Positions 4,829 to 13,815 of a stretch of DNA of 64,000 bases are shown here, piece after piece. The position numbers and the translations under genes were made by a program. This DNA comes from Acidimicrobiales bacterium (GTDB taxonomy: Bacteria > Actinomycetota > Acidimicrobiia > Acidimicrobiales > Aldehydirespiratoraceae): NCBI GenBank assembly GCA_040219515.1, contig JAVJSI010000012.1, positions 62,001 to 126,000 on the forward strand, in the 5' to 3' direction. The notes below the pieces were generated by a model, which did not search any database, was not told the origin of the DNA, and worked only from the letters and a program-made list of their open reading frames with translations. Numbering within the stretch: position 1 is the first letter of the stretch; each line of letters opens with the position of its first letter.

Positions 4829-6553
4829 TCAGGCCCCGACCGGAGCCACCTGGGCCCCTCGGACCAGTCGACCGGGCAACTCGCCGGTCGCCTCGCCAGA
4901 GGCATAGGTCTCGACCCCGGCGACCACCGTGTGGAGGTAGCCGTCGGCCCGTTGCAGGACCCGGCGTCCACCGGCCGGCAGGTCGTAGGCCAACTCGGGA
5001 CCACGCACCCGCAGGTTGTCGAAGTCGATCACGTTGAGGTCGGCTCGATAGCCCGGTGCCAGCACGCCGCGATCGTGGAGGCCGACGGTGCGGGCCGTGT
5101 CCCGGCACTGACGTCGGACGAGGAACTCGAGATCGATCCGGTCGGTCGGGCGCTCGCGACCCCAGTGCTGGAGGAGCGTGGTGGGGAACGAGCCGTCGCA
5201 GATCGTGCCGACATGGGCGCCGCCGTCGCTCAGCGCCGGCACGGTGAAGTCGTGGGTGAGCAGTTCACGGGTGCCGTCGAGAGTGCCCGTGCCGTAGTTG
5301 GTGAACGGCAACCACAGCATGTTGGTGCCGTCGTGCTCGAGCAGCAGGTCGAGCGCGAACTCGGCCGGGGCGACGCCGGCCGCAGCCGCTCGCCGCACCA
5401 CGGTCCGGTCGGCGGACGGCTCGTAGTAGGGCCACTCCCCCATCTCGTACATCGTCTCGAACTTCTCGATCAGGCTGCCGCCGACGAGCACACTGTCGGT
5501 GCCCCCGGCTGCGGACAGCAGCCGTGCGCGGCGGTCGGGGTCGTTCAGCGCCACCACCCGCTCGGCCGGCGCGAGATCGGCGACCTCGGCCCACACCGGG
5601 TTGCGCATGAACGGATTGAGGGTGCACTCGAAGCCCAGCAGGATGCCGATCGGGCGCACCGGGCACTGCCCCGTGATCTGGAAACCGTCGGCCCGGGCCC
5701 CCTCGATCCGACGCAGCAGGTCCTGATGGAAGTCGCCGCTCTTCGGGCTCTCGACGATGGTGAACGACAACGGACGACCGGAGACGCGACACATGTCGCG
5801 AAACATCTGGAACTCGCGTTCGCGATCGACGAAGTCCGACACGAGCTGGAACACGCCCGTGCCGCCGGCGCCGACGGCCTCGGCGATGCCGACCAGCTCG
5901 TCGGCCGCCGCGGTGAGGGTGGGAGTGAAGTCACCCGTGGAGGTCTTGTGGTTCGACGTGCGGCTGGTCGAGAAGCCCAGCGCACCGGCGGCGATGCCCG
6001 CCGCCGCCAGGCGGCCCATCTCGGCGATGTCATCGGCGGTCGCATCCTCGCGGTTCGCGCCGCGCTCCCCCATCACGTGCAGGCGCAATGCACCGTGCGG
6101 CACCTGGGTGGCGATGTCCATGTCCTTGGGCGAATCGCAGGCATCGAGATACTCGGCGAACGAACTCCAGTTCCAGGAGAGCCCCTCGTGCAGAGCGGCG
6201 CCGGGGATGTCCTCCACCCCTTCCATGAGTTCGACCAGCTTGTTGTGATCGTTGCTGTGGACGGGCGCGAACCCCACGCCGCAGTTGCCGAACACGACCG
6301 TGGTCACGCCGTGCCAGCTCGACGGCTGCATCCGTGTGTCCCACGTGGCCTGACCGTCGTAGTGGGTGTGGATGTCGACGAAACCGGGGGCCACCAGCGC
6401 GCCGTCGGCGTCGATCTCCCGCGTGGCCGAGCCGTCGACCTCGCCGACCTCGGTGACCACACCGTCGGTGATGGCGACGTCGGCGGTGCGCGCCGGCGCG
6501 CCCGTCCCGTCGACCACGTTGCCACCGCGGATGATCAGGTCGTGTGCAGCCAT
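4829..6553 (-). CDS. N-acyl-D-amino-acid deacylase-like amidohydrolase
   Basis: A 574-residue metal-dependent amidohydrolase. The N-terminus (HDLIIRGGNVVDGTG) and GFVDIHTHYD, with His62 and His64 as metal ligands, are typical of the D-aminoacylase/dihydroorotase group. The HGVTTVVFGNCGVGFAPV segment and the late SDGGAHVG motif with its metal-binding Asp also match N-acyl-D-amino-acid deacylases, which remove acyl groups from N-acyl-D-amino acids. The length is somewhat above the roughly 480-530 usual for that enzyme, so another amide substrate is possible. ATG 6553 is chosen because upstream codons lack family character. It leads an operon with the dioxygenase and is divergent from the mutase gene at 6643, leaving an 89-bp shared promoter region. 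Confidence 0.88.
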   Translation of the reverse strand: MAAHDLIIRGGNVVDGTGAPARTADVAITDGVVTEVGEVDGSATREIDADGALVAPGFVDIHTHYDGQATWDTRMQPSSWHGVTTVVFGNCGVGFAPVHSNDHNKLVELMEGVEDIPGAALHEGLSWNWSSFAEYLDACDSPKDMDIATQVPHGALRLHVMGERGANREDATADDIAEMGRLAAAGIAAGALGFSTSRTSNHKTSTGDFTPTLTAAADELVGIAEAVGAGGTGVFQLVSDFVDREREFQMFRDMCRVSGRPLSFTIVESPKSGDFHQDLLRRIEGARADGFQITGQCPVRPIGILLGFECTLNPFMRNPVWAEVADLAPAERVVALNDPDRRARLLSAAGGTDSVLVGGSLIEKFETMYEMGEWPYYEPSADRTVVRRAAAAGVAPAEFALDLLLEHDGTNMLWLPFTNYGTGTLDGTRELLTHDFTVPALSDGGAHVGTICDGSFPTTLLQHWGRERPTDRIDLEFLVRRQCRDTARTVGLHDRGVLAPGYRADLNVIDFDNLRVRGPELAYDLPAGGRRVLQRADGYLHTVVAGVETYASGEATGELPGRLVRGAQVAPVGA

Positions 6554-6642
6554 GTTCGCTCCCCAAGGTTCAGTTCTCCCATGATGACAGTGATGGGCGC
6601 CGCCGCCCAGACGACCCGACCCACTGCGGTAGTTTGTCCCCC

Positions 6643-8289
6643 ATGACCGATCCGTCGCCCCCGACCGATCCGCAGGAGCAGTGGCAAGCGGACTACGACG
6701 CCGCTCGACTCCGCGAGGTGCCCTTCGAGACGATGTCGGGCGTGCCGCTCGACGGCGTGTACGGCGAGGCACCCCTGCCCGGGCAATACCCCTACACACG
6801 CGGTCTCCACGCCGCCGGCTACCGGTCGCGGCTCTGGACCATGCGGATGTTCGCCGGGTTCGGCACCGCGGAGGACACCAACCTCCGCTTCAAGGAACTG
6901 CTGCGGGCCGGTGGCACCGGGCTGTCGACCGCCTTCGACATGCCCACCCTCATGGGCCGCGACTCCGACTCGCCGTGGGCCCTCGGCGAGGTCGGTCGGG
7001 CCGGCGTGGCCGTCGACACCCTGGCCGACATGGAGGACCTCTTCGCCGACATCGACCTCGCCGGTGTCTCCACCTCGATGACCATCAACGGGCCCGCGGC
7101 GACCCTGCTGGCGATGTATGTCGCCGTCGGTGAGAAGACCGGTGTGGCCCGCGCCGATCTCGCCGGCACCCTCCAGAACGACATCCTGAAGGAGTACCAG
7201 GCCCAGAAGGAATACATCTATCCGCCGCGACCGTCGATGCGCATCGTCACCGACACCGTGAGGTTCGCCACCGCCGAGATGCCGAAATGGCACCCGATCT
7301 CGATCTCCGGCTACCACATCCGCGAGGCCGGATCGACCGCCGCCCAGGAGCTCGCCTTCACCCTCGTCAACGGGTTCGCCTATGTGGAAGCGGCGATGGC
7401 GGCCGGGGAGAACATCGACGAGTTCGGACGGCGTCTGTCGTTCTTCTTCAACAGCCACAGCGACTTCTTCGAGGAGATCGGGAAGTTCCGGGCCGCTCGC
7501 CGCATCTGGGCCCGCTGGATGAAGGAGCGTTACGGCGCCACCGACGAGCGGGCCATGATGTGTCGCTTCCACACCCAGACGGCCGGCGTGTCGCTCACCG
7601 CCCAACAGCCCGAGATCAACATCGCCCGGGTGGCCACCCAGGCCCTGGCCGCCGCCCTCGGCGGCACCCAGAGCCTGCACAGCGACAGCTTCGACGAGGC
7701 GCTCGCCCTCCCCACTGAGAAGGCCGCCCGCATCGCGTTGCGCACCCAGCAGCTGATCGCCCACGAGACCGGGGTGACCAATGTCGTCGATCCGCTCGGC
7801 GGCGCGCCGTTCGTCGAATGGATGACCGACGAGATGGAGCGCCAGGCCGAGGCGGTGTTCTCCCATCTCGACGATCTCGGCAACGGTTCGATCCTCGAAG
7901 GGGTCTACGCGGGCATCGACAACGGCTACTTCGTCGGGGAGATCGCCGACGCGGCCTACCGCTTCGAACGCGAGGTCAACGCCCAACGTCGCATCGTCGT
8001 CGGGGTCAACGCCTTCACCGACGGCGGCGAGGACACCGACCCGAACCTGCTGCGGATCGACCATGCGACCGAGGAGTACCAGCGCAAACGCCTCGACAAG
8101 GTGAAGCGTGAACGCAGCCAGGAGGCGGTCGATGCCGCGCTGGCCCAGGTCACCGCCGATGCCGACGACCCCACGGTCAACCTGATGCCGTCGATCATCG
8201 ACGCGGTGAAGGCCTACGCGACCGAAGAGGAGATCGCGATGGCCATGGAGTCGGTCTTCGGAACGTATGTCGAGACCGCCATTGTCTGA
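6643..8289 (+). CDS. B12-dependent acyl-CoA mutase large subunit, isobutyryl-CoA mutase type
   Basis: A 548-residue substrate-binding (TIM-barrel) subunit of the methylmalonyl-CoA mutase superfamily; it lacks the B12 domain, which is the next gene. It aligns without gaps to Propionibacterium methylmalonyl-CoA mutase over the active site. Phe70 stands at Tyr89, Ala97 at Ala116, Gln188 (in KEYQAQKEY) at Arg207 and His225 (SGYHIREAG) at His244. Loss of the Arg that binds the free carboxylate, with Phe and Gln in the diagnostic positions, is the isobutyryl-CoA mutase pattern. Hydroxyisobutyryl-CoA mutase would have Ile and Asp at the first two sites. The likely reaction is isobutyryl-CoA to n-butyryl-CoA rearrangement, useful in valine or branched-chain acid catabolism. 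Start ATG 6643. Confidence 0.9.
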   Translation: MTDPSPPTDPQEQWQADYDAARLREVPFETMSGVPLDGVYGEAPLPGQYPYTRGLHAAGYRSRLWTMRMFAGFGTAEDTNLRFKELLRAGGTGLSTAFDMPTLMGRDSDSPWALGEVGRAGVAVDTLADMEDLFADIDLAGVSTSMTINGPAATLLAMYVAVGEKTGVARADLAGTLQNDILKEYQAQKEYIYPPRPSMRIVTDTVRFATAEMPKWHPISISGYHIREAGSTAAQELAFTLVNGFAYVEAAMAAGENIDEFGRRLSFFFNSHSDFFEEIGKFRAARRIWARWMKERYGATDERAMMCRFHTQTAGVSLTAQQPEINIARVATQALAAALGGTQSLHSDSFDEALALPTEKAARIALRTQQLIAHETGVTNVVDPLGGAPFVEWMTDEMERQAEAVFSHLDDLGNGSILEGVYAGIDNGYFVGEIADAAYRFEREVNAQRRIVVGVNAFTDGGEDTDPNLLRIDHATEEYQRKRLDKVKRERSQEAVDAALAQVTADADDPTVNLMPSIIDAVKAYATEEEIAMAMESVFGTYVETAIV

Positions 8290-8713
8290 GTCATCATTGT
8301 CTGAATCATCATTGTCTGAATCATCACCACCGCGGATCGTGCTCGCGAAGTTGGGTCTCGATGGCCACGACCGCGGGATCAAGGTGGTTGCGCGGATGCT
8401 GCGCGACGCGGGGATGGAGGTCATCTATCTCGGCCTGCGCCAGACCACCGACAGCATCGTGGCCGCGGTCGAGCAGGAGGACGCCGACGCCATCGGCCTC
8501 TCGATGCACAACGCCGGACACCTCACCCTCGGCCCCGCGATGCTCGCCGCGCTCGACGCCGCCGGGCTCGACGTGCCACTCATCATCGGCGGCATCGTGC
8601 CCGAGGCCGACCTGGCCGTACTCGAGGAGGCCGGCGTCGCCGCCGTGCTCGGCCCCGGCGCGTCGGCCGAGGAGGTCGTACGCACCGTGCGCCGAGTGGT
8701 CCACACCGAGTGA
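8267..8713 (+). CDS. B12-binding small subunit of the acyl-CoA mutase
   Basis: A 148-residue cobalamin-binding subunit. The DxHxxG motif is LDGHDRG (Asp32, His34, Gly37), which provides the lower axial His to cobalt. It is followed by SMHNAGH in the SxL position and IIGGIVP, the GG motif near the nucleotide tail. It pairs with the large subunit immediately upstream. ATG 8267 makes it overlap that gene by 23 bp. The alternative TTG starts inside the LSESS repeat (8282, 8297 or 8312) would shorten the flexible N-terminal tail; the choice is not settled. It overlaps the following meaB gene by 4 bp, so all three are one translationally coupled unit. Confidence 0.92.
   Translation: MSRPPLSESSLSESSLSESSPPRIVLAKLGLDGHDRGIKVVARMLRDAGMEVIYLGLRQTTDSIVAAVEQEDADAIGLSMHNAGHLTLGPAMLAALDAAGLDVPLIIGGIVPEADLAVLEEAGVAAVLGPGASAEEVVRTVRRVVHTE
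8282..8326 (+). repeat. 15-bp tandem repeat, three copies, coding for LSESS
   Basis: The unit TTGTCTGARTCATCA occurs three times head to tail at 8282-8296, 8297-8311 and 8312-8326; copies two and three are identical and copy one differs by a single base. In the frame of the B12 subunit it encodes LSESS three times. The first copy contains the stop codon of the mutase large subunit (TGA 8287-8289). Each copy also begins with a TTG, so the repeat multiplies possible start codons for the downstream gene. Confidence 0.9.
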
Positions 8714-9696
8714 CCACCCGCCACCTCACCCCCCGCGAACTGGTCGAGCGTGCGGTCGCCGGTGACCGTCGGGCCGTGGGTCGACTGCTCACGCTGGTCG
8801 AACGGGGCGGCGCCGCAGCCGACGAGATCGCCGAACTGACCCACGCGGCCAGCCACGAGGCCCACGTCATCGGCATCACCGGCTCGCCCGGCGCCGGCAA
8901 GTCCACGATGGTCGCCCGCCTGGTCGGCACGTTCACCGACGCGGGGCATCGGCCCGCGGTGCTCGCCGTCGACCCGTCGTCGCCGCTCACCGGTGGGGCC
9001 ATTCTCGGCGACCGGGTGCGCATGGCCGCCGTCGACACCACCGCGTTCATCCGGTCCGTCGCCACCCGTGGTCACGCCGGTGGACTCGCACTCGCCATCC
9101 CCGGAGGGGCGCGCGTCCTCGCCGCGGCCGGGTTCGATCCGGTCATCATCGAAACGGTCGGCGTCGGCCAGGTCGAGGTCGACGTCACCGCGGCAGCCGA
9201 CACGACGGTCGTCGTCGTCACCCCCGGCATGGGTGACGCGGTGCAGGCCAACAAGGCCGGGCTCCTCGAGGTCGCCGATGTCTTCGTGGTGAACAAGGCC
9301 GACCGTCCCGGGGCCGACGACACGCGCCGCGACCTCGAACTCATGCTCGAGCTGAGCCATGTGACCGGCCAGGAGGACGCCGGCTACCGCCCACCGATCG
9401 CCATGGTGAACTCGCTGGACGGCGACGGCATCGCCCTGGTCCGCTCACTGGTGGATGCCCACCGCCATCACCTCGACTCGTCGGGCGGGCGTCACACACG
9501 ACGCTGCCGACGGGCCCGCTTCGAGCTCGAGAGCCGAGCCGGACTCGAGTTCGAGCAGCGCCTGCGGGCCGCCTTGGCCTCCCCGGAGGTGAGCAGTGTG
9601 CTCGACCAGATCGCGACCGGGCAGCGCTCGCCCGCCGACGGACTCGGGGCGCTGCTCACCGCGCTTCCCCCACCGGTCCCCCGCGAGCCGACCTAA
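8710..9696 (+). CDS. meaB: MeaB/ArgK-family GTPase, mutase chaperone
   Basis: A 328-residue G3E GTPase. The Walker A motif is GSPGAGKST at about 58-66; VDPSSPLTGGAILGDRVRM, the metal-binding and switch I region, and NKADRPGADD, the base-specificity motif, follow. MeaB proteins gate cofactor loading and protect B12-dependent mutases by removing damaged cobalamin. GTG 8710 overlaps the stop of the B12 subunit, confirming that this chaperone belongs to the mutase operon. Because the mutase shows isobutyryl-CoA residues, this MeaB would serve that enzyme rather than a methylmalonyl-CoA mutase, though the protein itself does not reveal which partner it uses. Confidence 0.93.
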   Translation: MTTRHLTPRELVERAVAGDRRAVGRLLTLVERGGAAADEIAELTHAASHEAHVIGITGSPGAGKSTMVARLVGTFTDAGHRPAVLAVDPSSPLTGGAILGDRVRMAAVDTTAFIRSVATRGHAGGLALAIPGGARVLAAAGFDPVIIETVGVGQVEVDVTAAADTTVVVVTPGMGDAVQANKAGLLEVADVFVVNKADRPGADDTRRDLELMLELSHVTGQEDAGYRPPIAMVNSLDGDGIALVRSLVDAHRHHLDSSGGRHTRRCRRARFELESRAGLEFEQRLRAALASPEVSSVLDQIATGQRSPADGLGALLTALPPPVPREPT

Positions 9697-9705
9697 CATC
9701 GCCGC

Positions 9706-10887
9706 GTGAACCCCTCGACCGACATTCTCGACCCGGCCTGGTGGCAGCAGGATCCCCAGGCCGGCTATCGCGAGCTCCTCGCCCATCCGGGTCTGTGGCG
9801 AGACGAGCGCAGCGGGTTCTGGCTCGCGGCCCGCCATCGCGACCTCCTCACCGTCGAGCGTGACCCCGTCACCTTCGCCAGTCGGGCCGACGACGGCGGC
9901 GCGTATCGCATCAACCCGTCGCCGGGCGAGGAGACGATGATCAGCAAGGACGACCCGGAGCATCTCGCCCAGCGGCGTGCGGTGAACCGTCGCTTCACTC
10001 CCAAGGCCGTCCGAGACCACACCGACCACTATTCCTCCATGATCGAGACACTCGTGGACGCGGCGGTCGAGACCGTCGACACGAGTGGTCGGGTCGAGGT
10101 GATCGAGGCGCTGGCATCACAGTTGCCGTGCCGCGTCACCGCCGAGCTCCTGGGCTTCGGACAGGAAGCCTGGCGAGAAGTGAAAGACTGGTCCGAGCGC
10201 CAGATGCGAATCGACTCGGCGATGGCCGATCCCGAGCTGTTCGAGTCGTTCATCGGCAGCATCCAGGAGTGGGCTGCGGTCATGGAGAAGGTCGTCCCCG
10301 AGCGCGAGAAGGCGCCGGCCGACGACCTTTTCTCCGACTGGCTGGCCGTCGACATGGACCGCTCCACGATGGTCATGGAGACCGGTCTGCTCATCGCCGG
10401 CGGGGCCGAGACGACCCGCACCGTGATCGCCCACGGCCTGCGCACCCTGGCCGATCGCCCGGAGGTCTGGGAGCACCTGGCCGAGACTCCGTCGGCGATT
10501 CCCGGGGCCGTCGAGGAGCTCATCCGCTGGGTCACCCCCCTCAACAACATGTTCCGCATCGCCACCCGCGACGCCGTCGTCGACGGCACCGCGATCTCGG
10601 CCGGTGACCGGGTGGCCTTGGTGTACCCGGCCGCCAACCGCGACCCGGCGGTGTTCGATGCCCCCGACACGTTCGACATCACCCGCGACCCCAACCCCCA
10701 CGTCTCGTTCGGCCACGGCACCCACTTCTGTCTCGGCGCCAACCTGGCCCGGATCGAGCTGCGGCTGCTGCTCGAGGCGCTCACCCGGCGGGTGACCAAC
10801 CTTCGGGTCGTCACCGAGCCCGATGTCGAGCCCAACATCTTCGCCCGCGCCGTCCGCACCTTCGAACTGTCCTGGGACCGCCGCTGA
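9706..10887 (+). CDS. cytochrome P450
   Basis: A 393-residue soluble bacterial P450. The I-helix oxygen-activation region is LIAGGAETTRTV, the K-helix ExxR is in EELIRWVTP, and the heme-binding loop is FGHGTHFCLG with Cys342 as thiolate ligand. Size and the absence of a membrane anchor fit class I actinobacterial P450s that take electrons from ferredoxin; no ferredoxin gene is adjacent. Related actinobacterial enzymes hydroxylate steroid side chains, terpenes or branched fatty acids; the substrate is not predictable here. GTG 9706 starts 10 bp after meaB, so it may be co-transcribed with the mutase genes. It converges with the XRE regulator. Confidence 0.93.
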   Translation: MNPSTDILDPAWWQQDPQAGYRELLAHPGLWRDERSGFWLAARHRDLLTVERDPVTFASRADDGGAYRINPSPGEETMISKDDPEHLAQRRAVNRRFTPKAVRDHTDHYSSMIETLVDAAVETVDTSGRVEVIEALASQLPCRVTAELLGFGQEAWREVKDWSERQMRIDSAMADPELFESFIGSIQEWAAVMEKVVPEREKAPADDLFSDWLAVDMDRSTMVMETGLLIAGGAETTRTVIAHGLRTLADRPEVWEHLAETPSAIPGAVEELIRWVTPLNNMFRIATRDAVVDGTAISAGDRVALVYPAANRDPAVFDAPDTFDITRDPNPHVSFGHGTHFCLGANLARIELRLLLEALTRRVTNLRVVTEPDVEPNIFARAVRTFELSWDRR

Positions 10888-11784: not shown

Positions 11785-12942
11785 ATGTCGTCGCTCCTCA
11801 GCCGGCAGGCCCGATCGGCGACCACCTCCGCCATCCGGGACCTGCTCGAACACGCCCAACGTCCGGGGATGATCAGCCTCGCCGGCGGTCTGCCCGATCC
11901 GGCCCGCTTTCCGGTGGAGGAACTCGCCACCATCGCCGAGCGCGTGCTGCGCGACGACGGTCGCCGGGTGCTCCAGTACGGGCTCACGGCCGGCGAGCGC
12001 GACCTGCGTGATCACATCGTCGCCACCACGGCCGCGGCGGCGAGCGCCGAGGAGGTCGTCATCACGACCGGCTCCCAGCAGGGCCTGCGCCTGCTCGCCC
12101 ACGTGCTCATCGACCCCGGCGACCGCGTCGTGGTCGCCGATCCGGAGTACCTGGGTGCGACGCAGGCGTTCGCACAGGCGGGTGGACTACCGGTGGCCTT
12201 TCCGACCGACGCCGACGGACTCGATGTCGATGCGGTCGAGACCGCGTTGACGGACGGGCTCCGGCCGAAGTTCGTGTACCTCGTGCCCCACTTCCACAAT
12301 CCCACGGGCGCCACCCTCGCCGCCGAGCGCCGGCGGCGACTCTTCGAACTGGCCGATCGCTACGGCTTCATGGTCCTGCTCGACGATCCCTATCGTGAGC
12401 TCTACATCGGCGCGAACGCCCCGGACGAGGACGACCCGCATCCCATGGCGGTGCATCTGCGCAGTACGTCGAAGGTGCTCGCCCCGGGTCTTCGTATCGG
12501 CTGGTTGATCGGACCGGCGTGGCTGACCACGGCGGTCGAGCGATCGAAACAGGCCGTGGATCTCCACACGAGTACCGTCGCCCAGGCCATCGTCCTCGCC
12601 GCCCTCCGGGCCGACTGGTTCCCTCCCCACCTCGACGAACTGCGCGCCGCAACCGGTGAGAAGCGCGACGCACTCTGTCGAGCCCTGGACGACGCGCTGG
12701 GTGAGCGGATCTCGTTCACCCGTCCCGGCGGCGGCATGTTCGTGTGGGCCGCGCTCGAGGGAGTCGACACGACGACGCTGCTGGCCCCGGCCCTCGAGCG
12801 CGGTGTCGCGTTCGTGCCCGGTGGGGCGTTCGCGATCCACCGCGACCTTGCCGACCACCTCCGTCTGAGTTGGGCCACCGCGTCGCCCGATGAGCTGAGC
12901 GAGGCGGTCTCGAGACTCGCCGCGGCCCTCGACGACCTCTAG
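11785..12942 (+). CDS. PLP-dependent class I/II aminotransferase (2-aminoadipate aminotransferase-like)
   Basis: A 385-residue fold-type I aminotransferase. It begins without a DNA-binding domain (RSATTSAIRDLLEH), continues with ISLAGGLPDPARFP, TTGSQQGLRLLAHV (phosphate loop) and PHFHNPTG, and has the Schiff-base Lys at about 230 in RSTSKVLAPG; LRIGW follows. This is the LysN/ArAT-like group, which transaminates 2-aminoadipate, leucine or aromatic amino acids with broad specificity. Function beyond amino-acid transamination is uncertain. It starts at ATG 11785, divergent from an MmyB-like regulator that probably controls it, and is followed after 16 bp by an AhpD-like gene. Confidence 0.88.
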   Translation: MSSLLSRQARSATTSAIRDLLEHAQRPGMISLAGGLPDPARFPVEELATIAERVLRDDGRRVLQYGLTAGERDLRDHIVATTAAAASAEEVVITTGSQQGLRLLAHVLIDPGDRVVVADPEYLGATQAFAQAGGLPVAFPTDADGLDVDAVETALTDGLRPKFVYLVPHFHNPTGATLAAERRRRLFELADRYGFMVLLDDPYRELYIGANAPDEDDPHPMAVHLRSTSKVLAPGLRIGWLIGPAWLTTAVERSKQAVDLHTSTVAQAIVLAALRADWFPPHLDELRAATGEKRDALCRALDDALGERISFTRPGGGMFVWAALEGVDTTTLLAPALERGVAFVPGGAFAIHRDLADHLRLSWATASPDELSEAVSRLAAALDDL

Positions 12943-12958: not shown

Positions 12959-13330
12959 ATGGCCTTCACCGATCAGCTTGCGCCCAACGTCGCCGCGGCC
13001 TTCGACCATCTGCTCGACGGCGTGTGGGACGGAAGGGTCGACACCGGCCTGCTCGAGTCGTGCCGCCAACGGGTGTGTGCTCTGGTCGGCGCGCCCGATG
13101 CCGCCGGGCGTCATCGCCGCGAGCCCGTCGCCACGACCGACCACCCGGCGACGGCGGCGTGTCTCGCCTTCACCGAGATGTGGGTGATCGACCCGCACGC
13201 GGTCACCGACGAGATGGCCGCCGCCGTACGGGCTCATCTCACCGACGCCGAGGCCGCGGCCTTCACGATCGCGCTCGCCACCATCGAAGCGCAGGCTCGC
13301 GCCACCCTCGCCTGGGAGGGCGGCGCGTGA
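12959..13330 (+). CDS. small AhpD/carboxymuconolactone decarboxylase-like partner protein
   Basis: A 123-residue, mostly helical protein. The C-terminal half (ATAACLAFTEMWVIDPHAVTDEM, then AHLTDAEAAAFTIALATIEA, each read in part) resembles the helical core of the AhpD-like alkyl hydroperoxidase fold, but the CxxC redox pair is absent. Two Cys (CRQRVCALVG) lie near residues 35-40. Its stop overlaps the GTG start of the following selenoprotein candidate, so the two are translationally coupled and may form a heteromer; the redox centre would be in the partner. Assignment to the AhpD-like fold is by weak resemblance and context. A hydrolase or regulator role cannot be excluded. Confidence 0.6.
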   Translation: MAFTDQLAPNVAAAFDHLLDGVWDGRVDTGLLESCRQRVCALVGAPDAAGRHRREPVATTDHPATAACLAFTEMWVIDPHAVTDEMAAAVRAHLTDAEAAAFTIALATIEAQARATLAWEGGA

Positions 13331-13815
13331 GATTCGCCCCACCGCCCGACTCGATGAACTTCTTCGAGCACGACGGGGAACTGAACGACCGGTTCAACGC
13401 GTTCTACGCCGAACTCTGGCAACGTGGCGTCGTCGACGAAGCGACCCTCGAGGTCGGTCGACTCCGCAACGCGCAGATCACCGACTGCGGGATTTGACGC
13501 AACCTCCGCTTCGCAGGTGCGCAGCAGCAGGGTCTGACCGAAGACCACATCAGCGCGCTCGGCGGTGAGCGCGAGGACGGCGCCCTTCCCGCTCGATGGC
13601 GCGACGCGGCGGAGTGGGCCGACGTGGTGATCGGCGCGACCTCGATGTCGTCTCGCGAGACACCCTCCCGGAAGATGCTCACCACCATGAGCGAGGCGGA
13701 ACTGGCCGAACTGACGCTCACCGTGGCGGTGGCCCAGGGCTTCTCGAAAGCCGCGATCGCCTGGGGTCCGGCCCCCGAGCTCCCCACCATGGTGATCCCC
13801 ACCCCGGGTACCTGA
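13327..13815 (+). CDS. candidate selenoprotein: AhpD-like protein with CxxU motif
   Basis: Reading from GTG 13327 to TGA 13813-13815 gives 162 residues if the in-frame TGA at 13495-13497 is decoded as selenocysteine. That codon falls in RNAQITDCGI-U-RNLRF, exactly where the AhpD/carboxymuconolactone-decarboxylase family has the second Cys of its CxxC redox motif (Cys54, Sec57). Family-like sequence continues unbroken after the TGA (AGAQQQGLTEDHISAL, then ELTLTVAVAQGFSKAAIAWG), so the frame is under selection on both sides. A hairpin with an AGGU loop starts at the distance expected of a bacterial SECIS. The likely role is peroxide or thiol redox chemistry. A standard gene caller would split this into fragments or call a pseudogene; a TGC/TGT-to-TGA error or mutation is the alternative. 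Confidence 0.8.
13495..13533 (+). promoter_or_regulatory. SECIS-like element directly after the in-frame TGA
   Basis: Seventeen nucleotides after the TGA the sequence forms CUUCGC-AGGU-GCGCAG (13509-13524): three G-C pairs close a four-base AGGU loop, with a U-C mismatch and two further pairs below. A looser lower stem, ACC with GGU (13502-13533), is possible. In E. coli fdhF the SECIS loop also begins AGG and also starts 17 nt after the UGA, following GC. SelB reads this kind of apical loop. Spacing and loop are seen in the sequence; function is inferred. Confidence 0.72.

Follow-up and report, generated by a model that had tools for sequence, protein, structure and literature searches.

The window analyzed here, which is the whole stretch of 64,000 nucleotides from an Acidimicrobiales bacterium, contains a gene for a predicted selenoprotein of the AhpD/CMD fold at positions 13327–13815 on the forward strand. 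The frame runs from a GTG start at 13327 to a TGA at 13495–13497, which is codon 57, continues for 105 sense codons, and ends at a second TGA (13813–13815). The product has 162 residues, with predicted selenocysteine (Sec) at position 57, and its calculated full-length size is about 17.7 kDa. Its redox motif is T-D-C-G-I-U-R-N-L-R-F: the internal TGA stands in place of the second cysteine of a CxxC motif, giving C-G-I-U. GTG 13327 is a sensible start, since methionine occupies the same place in all five other congeneric orthologues and there is a 4-nt overlap between this start and the stop of the gene upstream. Lack of conservation beyond the terminal TGA in the six congeneric orthologues suggests that it is a genuine stop. 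The gene is located on contig C12 of a host genome of 4.02 Mb in 19 contigs.

Directly upstream (12959–13330, forward strand) lies a partner gene encoding a diverged AhpD-fold protein of 123 residues with three scattered cysteines and no CxxC; it ends 4 nt inside the selenoprotein gene. This partner was absent from the preliminary description of the DNA. A class I/II PLP aminotransferase is encoded 16 nt upstream of the partner (11785–12942, forward strand) and possibly belongs to the same operon as the pair in this genus; its relative was also found upstream in two congeneric loci (L073, L074). Farther upstream, at 6544–10887, the window contains methylmalonyl-CoA mutase-like genes, recognized by eye, as well as a MeaB GTPase (8710–9696) and a cytochrome P450 (9706–10887), both checked with profiles.

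The protein read through the TGA matched the Pfam CMD family (PF02627) with 27.6 bits against a cut-off of 23 over residues 18–99, a range spanning the TGA; in the six-frame search the same gene scored 22.0 bits, just below the cut-off. Substitutions among the six congeneric orthologues at codon positions 1, 2, and 3 numbered 300, 278, and 718 over 1502 codon pairs after the TGA, and 82, 76, and 322 over 840 codon pairs before it. The excess at third positions after the TGA therefore indicates that this part of the gene evolves as a sequence translated in this frame. If the TGA at 13495 were a true stop, a protein of 56 residues would be produced and the rest would be translated separately or by low-level readthrough. 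GC-rich DNA does hold frames open by chance; however, both the CMD domain and the AhpD fold extend across the TGA, the four homologues with cysteine at this site are each one continuous protein, and the TGA form co-occurs with SelB, as described below. TAA or TAG was not seen at the site in the counted rows, the counting having required U or C in an intact motif. We consider a true stop very improbable.

The predicted structure of the selenoprotein (pLDDT 85.0) has the all-helical AhpD fold that characterizes the CMD/AhpD-like superfamily (PF02627). Its best PDB matches were 2o4d and 2ijc (Z 14.7), followed by debrominase Bmp8 (Z 12.7), Sestrin2 (Z 11.0), and Mycobacterium tuberculosis AhpD (Z 10.4); folds missing from the lists of structure matches were not counted as evidence. 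The residue encoded by the TGA aligns with the second cysteine of solved AhpD-fold proteins. In the alignment with 2ijc, Glu42, Cys54, and the TGA residue correspond to Glu, Cys, and Cys of E-x11-C-A-Y-C, and Arg61 corresponds to the histidine four residues past the second cysteine. In AhpD, the second cysteine is peroxidatic, the first one is resolving, and Glu and His form a proton relay. Of the Glu, CxxC, and His of AhpD proper, the window protein thus keeps Glu42 and the Cys54/Sec57 pair and has Arg61 for His; this arginine is invariant in all 51 aligned rows, the Cys forms included. The term "AhpD-like", used in the preliminary description, is therefore appropriate for the fold and does not extend to the relay histidine. 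The lost histidine would fit a selenol that needs less help for deprotonation; this is only a thought, and the Cys homologues also lack the histidine. The window protein matched neither TIGR00777 nor TIGR00778, and seven divergent homologues scored 14.1–21.6 bits with TIGR00778 against a cut-off of 27.8. For these eight proteins no NCBIfam family was above its cut-off.

Homologues were searched for with patterns and profiles carrying cysteine at the site, or with patterns ending before it, so a bias towards TGA is not expected. Among the 51 genomes of the family sample are seven of the genus; six of these, the host included, were found to have an orthologue. The five other congeneric orthologues are 69–73% identical, and each has a single internal stop, a TGA at the same codon. 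We failed to find an orthologue in the seventh congeneric genome, G026 (97% complete), which has SelB and only a distant CMD relative. Four named relatives, with the record titles Acidimicrobiales or Acidimicrobiia bacterium, are 68–72% identical. Of the 395 genomes in the class sample, 26 matched at E ≤ 1e-12. Full members were found in 21 of them, with TGA in 17 and Cys in 4; the matches in the other 5 were partial or distant. The scan of named genomes yielded 57 loci. Altogether 83 loci reached at least 80 bits, and 82 of them had an intact motif with U or C; the remaining one, L068, stops at a contig border just past the motif. Merging nine loci with identical proteins left 73 distinct homologues; the codon in question is TGA in 69 of them and a cysteine codon in 4. 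Rows entered this count if they showed U or C within an intact motif, a requirement that removed L068 alone. Outside the 73 stand L068 (reading U), L121 (below 80 bits, reading U), and L063; matches below 80 bits are other CMD proteins (L019–L042, L064–L067, L069, L070) and were not included in the family count. L063, from genome G366, retains only the C-terminal half of a homologue, the upstream half being absent in the same frame; it is perhaps a decayed or rearranged copy.

These counts bear on the possibility that the TGA is a mutation or a miscall in an ordinary CxxC gene, that is, a pseudogene or a sequencing error. Cysteine codons TGC and TGT are one base away from TGA, and four homologues do show cysteine at the site; however, TGA is present in 69 of the 73 homologues with identity to the window protein down to 32%, the third-position bias continues past it, and the genome encodes SelB and tRNA-Sec. 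An error or a pseudogene is, in our opinion, extremely improbable.

Across 50 aligned homologues, identity to the window protein was 32–72% (alignment A2 contained 51 rows and alignment A3 contained 41 of the rows available). According to the record titles, the homologues belong to Actinomycetota, Pseudomonadota, Myxococcota, and Chloroflexota; isolated unexpected titles may reflect mislabelled assemblies. L102, titled Bifidobacterium breve, and L083, titled Acidobacteria, group within clades of Acidimicrobiia, and the protein of L102 is the same as that of L061, which belongs to the order of the window; both are probably mislabelled. In the tree, from which L123 was omitted, the four Cys rows fall into two separate pairs, and supported branches force at least two changes. 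Rooting is unsafe, and two reversions from Sec to Cys would be a guess.

The machinery for Sec incorporation was encoded in the host genome. SelA was found at C18:155544–156581 (E 7.7e-96), and SelB (276 bits, above the cut-off) is encoded by the ORF right after selA, its start sharing one base with the selA stop. A tRNA-Sec with the anticodon TCA, above the gathering score and also called by ARAGORN, is located about 24 kb from selA/selB. SelD (362 bits, above the cut-off; L011, C16:95480–96403, minus strand) has an in-frame TGA at its Sec/Cys position (GAG-U-GCK), so the selenophosphate synthetase of the host seems to be a selenoprotein itself. The genome thus carries selA, selB, selC, and selD, the complete set expected of a bacterium making selenoproteins. 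No support was found for reassignment of TGA throughout the genome, for example to tryptophan: the partner and selenoprotein genes both end in TGA, the site alternates with cysteine, and the Sec machinery is present. We regard such reassignment as practically negligible.

Two further genes with an in-frame TGA are likely Sec users of the host. One is an FdhA-like molybdopterin oxidoreductase (L129, C10:147800–150900, frame 0) with C-N-R-T-U-H-A-P, which we take to be an FdhA-type Sec site; the other is a second CMD gene (L128, C7:114400–116000, frame 2) with N-G-C-H-Y-U. Another CMD protein, with C-H-I-U-I-D-T-R-S, was found in nine genomes of g2, a genus of the same family (L021, L022, L024–L027, L033, L035, L039); its relatives in genera g1, g9, and g10, candidate orthologues, have N-G-C-x-V-C-L-N-T-R-S. 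The distant CMD protein of G026 (genus g1; L037) has E-C-P-I-U. The C-H-I-U/C-x-V-C and E-C-P-I-U proteins, as putative orthologues, would represent additional Sec/Cys pairs in the family.

SelB above the cut-off was found in 219 of the 395 genomes of the class. It was present in all 17 genomes with the TGA form versus 202 of the 378 others (Fisher p 3e-5, uncorrected for relatedness), and in two of the four genomes with the Cys form (G156 and G240; not above the cut-off in G110 and G160). In the second set, consisting of 80 of the 83 genomes chosen, SelB was above the cut-off in 62 of 67 TGA-bearing genomes. Three of the other five (G447, G463, G467) have partial matches, possibly SelB genes cut by contig ends; G466 and G477 showed neither SelB above the cut-off nor a clear piece of it, only weaker matches.

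The preliminary description had given the frame correctly to the base and had proposed that family-like sequence continues past a TGA at the second cysteine of CxxC; the Pfam match across the TGA, congeneric conservation with its third-position bias, and the alignment with homologues and solved AhpD-fold proteins bear this out. Its reading of the gene as a selenoprotein gains support from the Sec machinery and from the ratio of 69 TGA to 4 Cys, two of the checks it had suggested (a search for selA, selB, selC, and selD, and inspection of homologues for Cys or TGA); the absence of selB and selC, which it had named as contrary evidence, does not hold for this genome, and the same ratio excludes the error or pseudogene that it had judged unlikely. 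On these grounds, insertion of Sec at UGA 13495–13497 is predicted from sequence as very probable.

A candidate SECIS hairpin was found in the window at 13508–13525 on the forward strand, 17 nt past the TGA, with arms at 13508–13514 and 13519–13525 and the loop AGGU at 13515–13518. Six of its seven positions pair; the stem is composed of 3 bp, a U·C mismatch common to the genus, and 3 bp. Published rules for bacterial SECIS elements include a loop of 3–9 nt with G in one of its first two positions, a stem of 4–16 bp, spacing of 16–37 nt, and MFE ≤ −7.5 (PMC13188914). The loop, spacing, and MFE of the window hairpin fit these rules; the stretch was no more stable than its shuffles (z +0.71). 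In their loose form the rules were rejected as a discriminator, since all four Cys homologues satisfied them too; with four contiguous pairs they were satisfied at 62 of 69 TGA sites.

Two versions of the hairpin occur in the family. Version 1 (32 loci, mainly Acidimicrobiia) has a stem from +11 to +28 and a loop of 4 nt, mostly AGGU or GGUC. Version 2 (37 loci, mainly Gammaproteobacteria and Microthrix-like Acidimicrobiia) has a stem from +18 to +36 closing C-G-U-G-N. Paired cells amounted to 94.3% in version 1 and 90.9% in version 2, falling to 57% or less when the partner was slid by 1–3 columns. Cells changed on both sides numbered 4 in version 1 (one pair, in one group of relatives) and 29 in version 2 (three pairs), and none of 500 shuffles was as high in either version, although the shuffles ignore relatedness. 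Two other measures showed no excess over shuffles: doubly changed pairs (1 in version 1 and 3 in version 2) and additional pair types (4 and 8).

When stems had to comply with the published rules on loop and spacing, one of 7 bp or longer was found at 70% of the 69 TGA sites, at 7.8% of the control codons (7573 codons elsewhere in these genes), and at none of the four Cys sites. With at least 6 bp, the values were 84%, 20%, and one of four, and with at least 5 bp, 87%, 42%, and two of four; at 8 bp or more there was no contrast (1.4%, 3.1%, and none of four). When the protein was held fixed by synonymous randomization, p ≤ 0.05 was reached at 4 of 69 sites for stem 1 and at 20 of 69 for stem 2. 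Significance in single sequences was seldom reached because the amino acids dictate most of the pairs; an excess of about 0.5 to 3 pairs was seen in most sequences and none in L079, L082, L120, and L127. Fold z-scores, calculated on a set of ten stretches, were −2.42, −1.99, −2.52, −0.13, −0.39, and −0.65 for the TGA loci L043, L048, L108, L053, L085, and L107, respectively, and +0.49, +0.70, and +0.42 for the Cys loci L046, L051, and L058, where the stretches of L046 and L051 were cut three bases early and that of L058 three bases late. Thus, the assignment of the hairpin as a SECIS element is well supported for the family. For the window itself, position and loop alone hint at such an element, and the hairpin is weak in the genus of the window.

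The partner gene accompanies the selenoprotein gene throughout the family. With a profile grown from the window partner, 61 of the 73 members, including all four with Cys, were found to have a partner homologue encoded separately and immediately upstream. In L056 the partner precedes the selenoprotein in one open frame, and nine Microthrix-like members carry it as a C-terminal fusion to the selenoprotein, which makes 10 fused forms. In 71 of 73 homologues the partner therefore either lies next to the selenoprotein gene on its upstream side or forms a fusion with it; the remaining two, L117 and L123, are cut by contig ends and undecidable. The distance from the partner stop to the nearest selenoprotein start never exceeded 38 nt in the 61 cases, with overlaps of −1 or −4 in 36, the choice of the nearest start leaning towards short gaps.

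No Pfam or NCBIfam match was obtained for the window partner, PF02627 included, and no NCBIfam family was above the cut-off for seven other partners. Among five partners of other lineages tested with PF02627, those of L053, L059, L079, and L058 were above the cut-off and that of L092 was just below it. The partner profile also matches the selenoprotein, although weakly, and the model of the window partner predicts the AhpD fold (pLDDT 89.8, Z 12.1 to 7xw1). CxxC was absent from all 61 upstream partners between domain start and stop; every one of them has some cysteine, and 20 retain the first cysteine in a G-C-x-x-E/D-like setting.

Among the neighbouring genes compared, the partner is the sole constant one. 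Clustering of neighbours, which covered the 57 named loci, showed that the others vary by lineage: acyl-CoA dehydrogenases were found in 13 of 57, and P450s, SDRs, CoA ligases, and the aminotransferase also occur. In seven of the 57 loci a peroxiredoxin gene lies close to the pair; these seven belong to a single clade. We infer from the neighbours that the pair may have an auxiliary redox role in the oxidative degradation of lipids or related compounds.

The following sequence of events would account for these data. SelB and tRNA-Sec would decode UGA 13495–13497 as Sec, helped by the hairpin about 17 nt downstream, to give an AhpD-fold enzyme with a redox pair C54-x-x-Sec57. Most likely, the selenolate of Sec57 would attack an oxidized substrate, for which a hydroperoxide, organic or lipid, is the probable candidate. 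Cys54 would then resolve the selenenic acid to a selenylsulfide, and a cellular thiol reductant would regenerate the enzyme. The product of 12959–13330 is most likely the second subunit, as adjacency and fusions suggest, and the working unit would be an asymmetric heteromer with one active site and one pseudo-site. It is highly likely that the selenoprotein gene belongs to a functional pair with its partner, whatever the substrate. Physical partnership of the two products is predicted as likely. The fold makes peroxide or thiol-disulfide chemistry rather probable; reduction of hydroperoxides in particular is quite conceivable on the same basis, yet short of probable.

The selenoprotein may instead not be a peroxidase. 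As a substrate-specific AhpD-fold enzyme or a sestrin-like sensor, it would use its Sec pair for thiol-disulfide or dehalogenation chemistry, and the partner would bind a ligand. The invariant arginine in place of the AhpD relay histidine, the structural matches to Bmp8 debrominase (Z 12.7) and Sestrin2 (Z 11.0) besides AhpD, and the lineage-dependent neighbours agree with such a role. The peroxiredoxin near the pair, albeit in seven loci of one clade, fits peroxide defence, and fold matches do not tell function. We therefore consider a non-peroxidase selenoprotein possible but on the whole doubtful. As a tentative and rather unlikely proposal, the two genes would encode a widespread two-subunit selenoenzyme distinct from AhpD, in which an AhpD-fold subunit with C-x-x-Sec, and with arginine in place of the relay histidine, is complemented by a CxxC-less AhpD-fold pseudo-subunit that contributes to the active site or acts as a ligand sensor, and which serves lipid or xenobiotic breakdown and not AhpC recycling.

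Selenoproteins of this kind are already known. The preliminary description had stated that AhpD-like selenoproteins occur in other bacteria, and CxxU proteins of the AhpD-like and CMD-like types have indeed been in print since 2005: 27 AhpD-like and 4 CMD domain-containing proteins were reported from the Sargasso Sea (PMC1088965), and an ocean survey listed 299 proteins of AhpD-like 1 and 70 of AhpD-like 2 (PMC2398784). AhpD-like 1 corresponds to COG2128 and AhpD-like 2 to pfam02627 (PMC1088965, PMC2398784). AhpD-like families also appear in PMC1794560 and PMC9312934, and a 2026 catalogue contains both AhpD-like and CMD-like selenoproteins, quoting the accession MBW1767730.1 (PMC13188914). With AhpD-like 1 and 2 and the CMD proteins of the Sargasso Sea, the window family shares the superfamily, Sec as the second residue of CxxU, and Cys homologues mixed in. 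One ocean-survey read with Prx-like 1 adjoining AhpD-like 2 (PMC2398784) parallels the peroxiredoxin near the pair in 7 of 57 loci. The window family may fall within AhpD-like 2 or the CMD-like family, from which it is set apart here by their descriptions and not by sequences; the descriptions consulted in PMC1088965 and PMC2398784 mention no CxxC-less partner gene, and the main text of PMC2398784 contains neither "Actinobacteria" nor "operon".

Three NCBIfam models of the same superfamily name selenoproteins: NF053654 (YciW-related), NF041047 (GSU3128 family), and NF041238 (AhpD-related). The window protein scored 22.4 and 15.4 bits with the first two against cut-offs of 310 and 110, and did not match the third at E ≤ 1. 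It shares its fold with single-domain proteins such as PA0269 of Pseudomonas aeruginosa (2ijc, 2o4d, 7xw1) and AhpD of M. tuberculosis (1gu9), and 2ijc also has the glutamate 12 residues ahead of the first cysteine and a CxxC aligning with CxxU. Unlike both of these proteins, the window protein has Sec for the second cysteine, arginine for the histidine four residues on, and a diverged partner gene. Bacterial two-domain AhpD-like proteins in which one domain lacks cysteines have been described in Corynebacterium ureicelerivorans and Comamonas aquatica and proposed as analogues of sestrins (PMC11429811). They resemble our pair in combining one active and one inactive AhpD-like domain, here fused in 10 homologues. 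They carry Cys, whereas here Sec is present and mostly two abutting or overlapping genes are involved; and the partners here, although without CxxC, are not cysteine-free, unlike the cysteine-less domain in PMC11429811.

Among the titles listed, our literature search found no paper on selenoproteins of the host lineage (Acidimicrobiia, Ilumatobacter) or on the motif. This agrees with the preliminary description as to the lineage, the kind of protein itself having a longer published record. Thus, the AhpD/CMD selenoprotein with CxxU is of a known kind, and we did not find its arrangement with a partner described, AhpD-like 2 having been compared by description only. The points of interest are the constant partner, the arginine in place of the AhpD relay histidine, and the spread across phyla.

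Annotation readily truncates or misses genes that carry a Sec TGA within the frame. The selenoproteome of this class of Actinomycetota, with SelB in more than half of the sampled genomes, may be under-described. In this family Sec has been retained over Cys, 69 to 4, in distant bacteria, and the pair of a Sec subunit and a CxxC-less subunit offers a clear, testable case of an asymmetric AhpD-fold selenoenzyme. If the less likely reading as a two-subunit selenoenzyme distinct from AhpD is true, the pseudo-subunit would work much like the second domain of sestrins, and the fused forms would be a selenium-based bacterial parallel of the sestrin layout.
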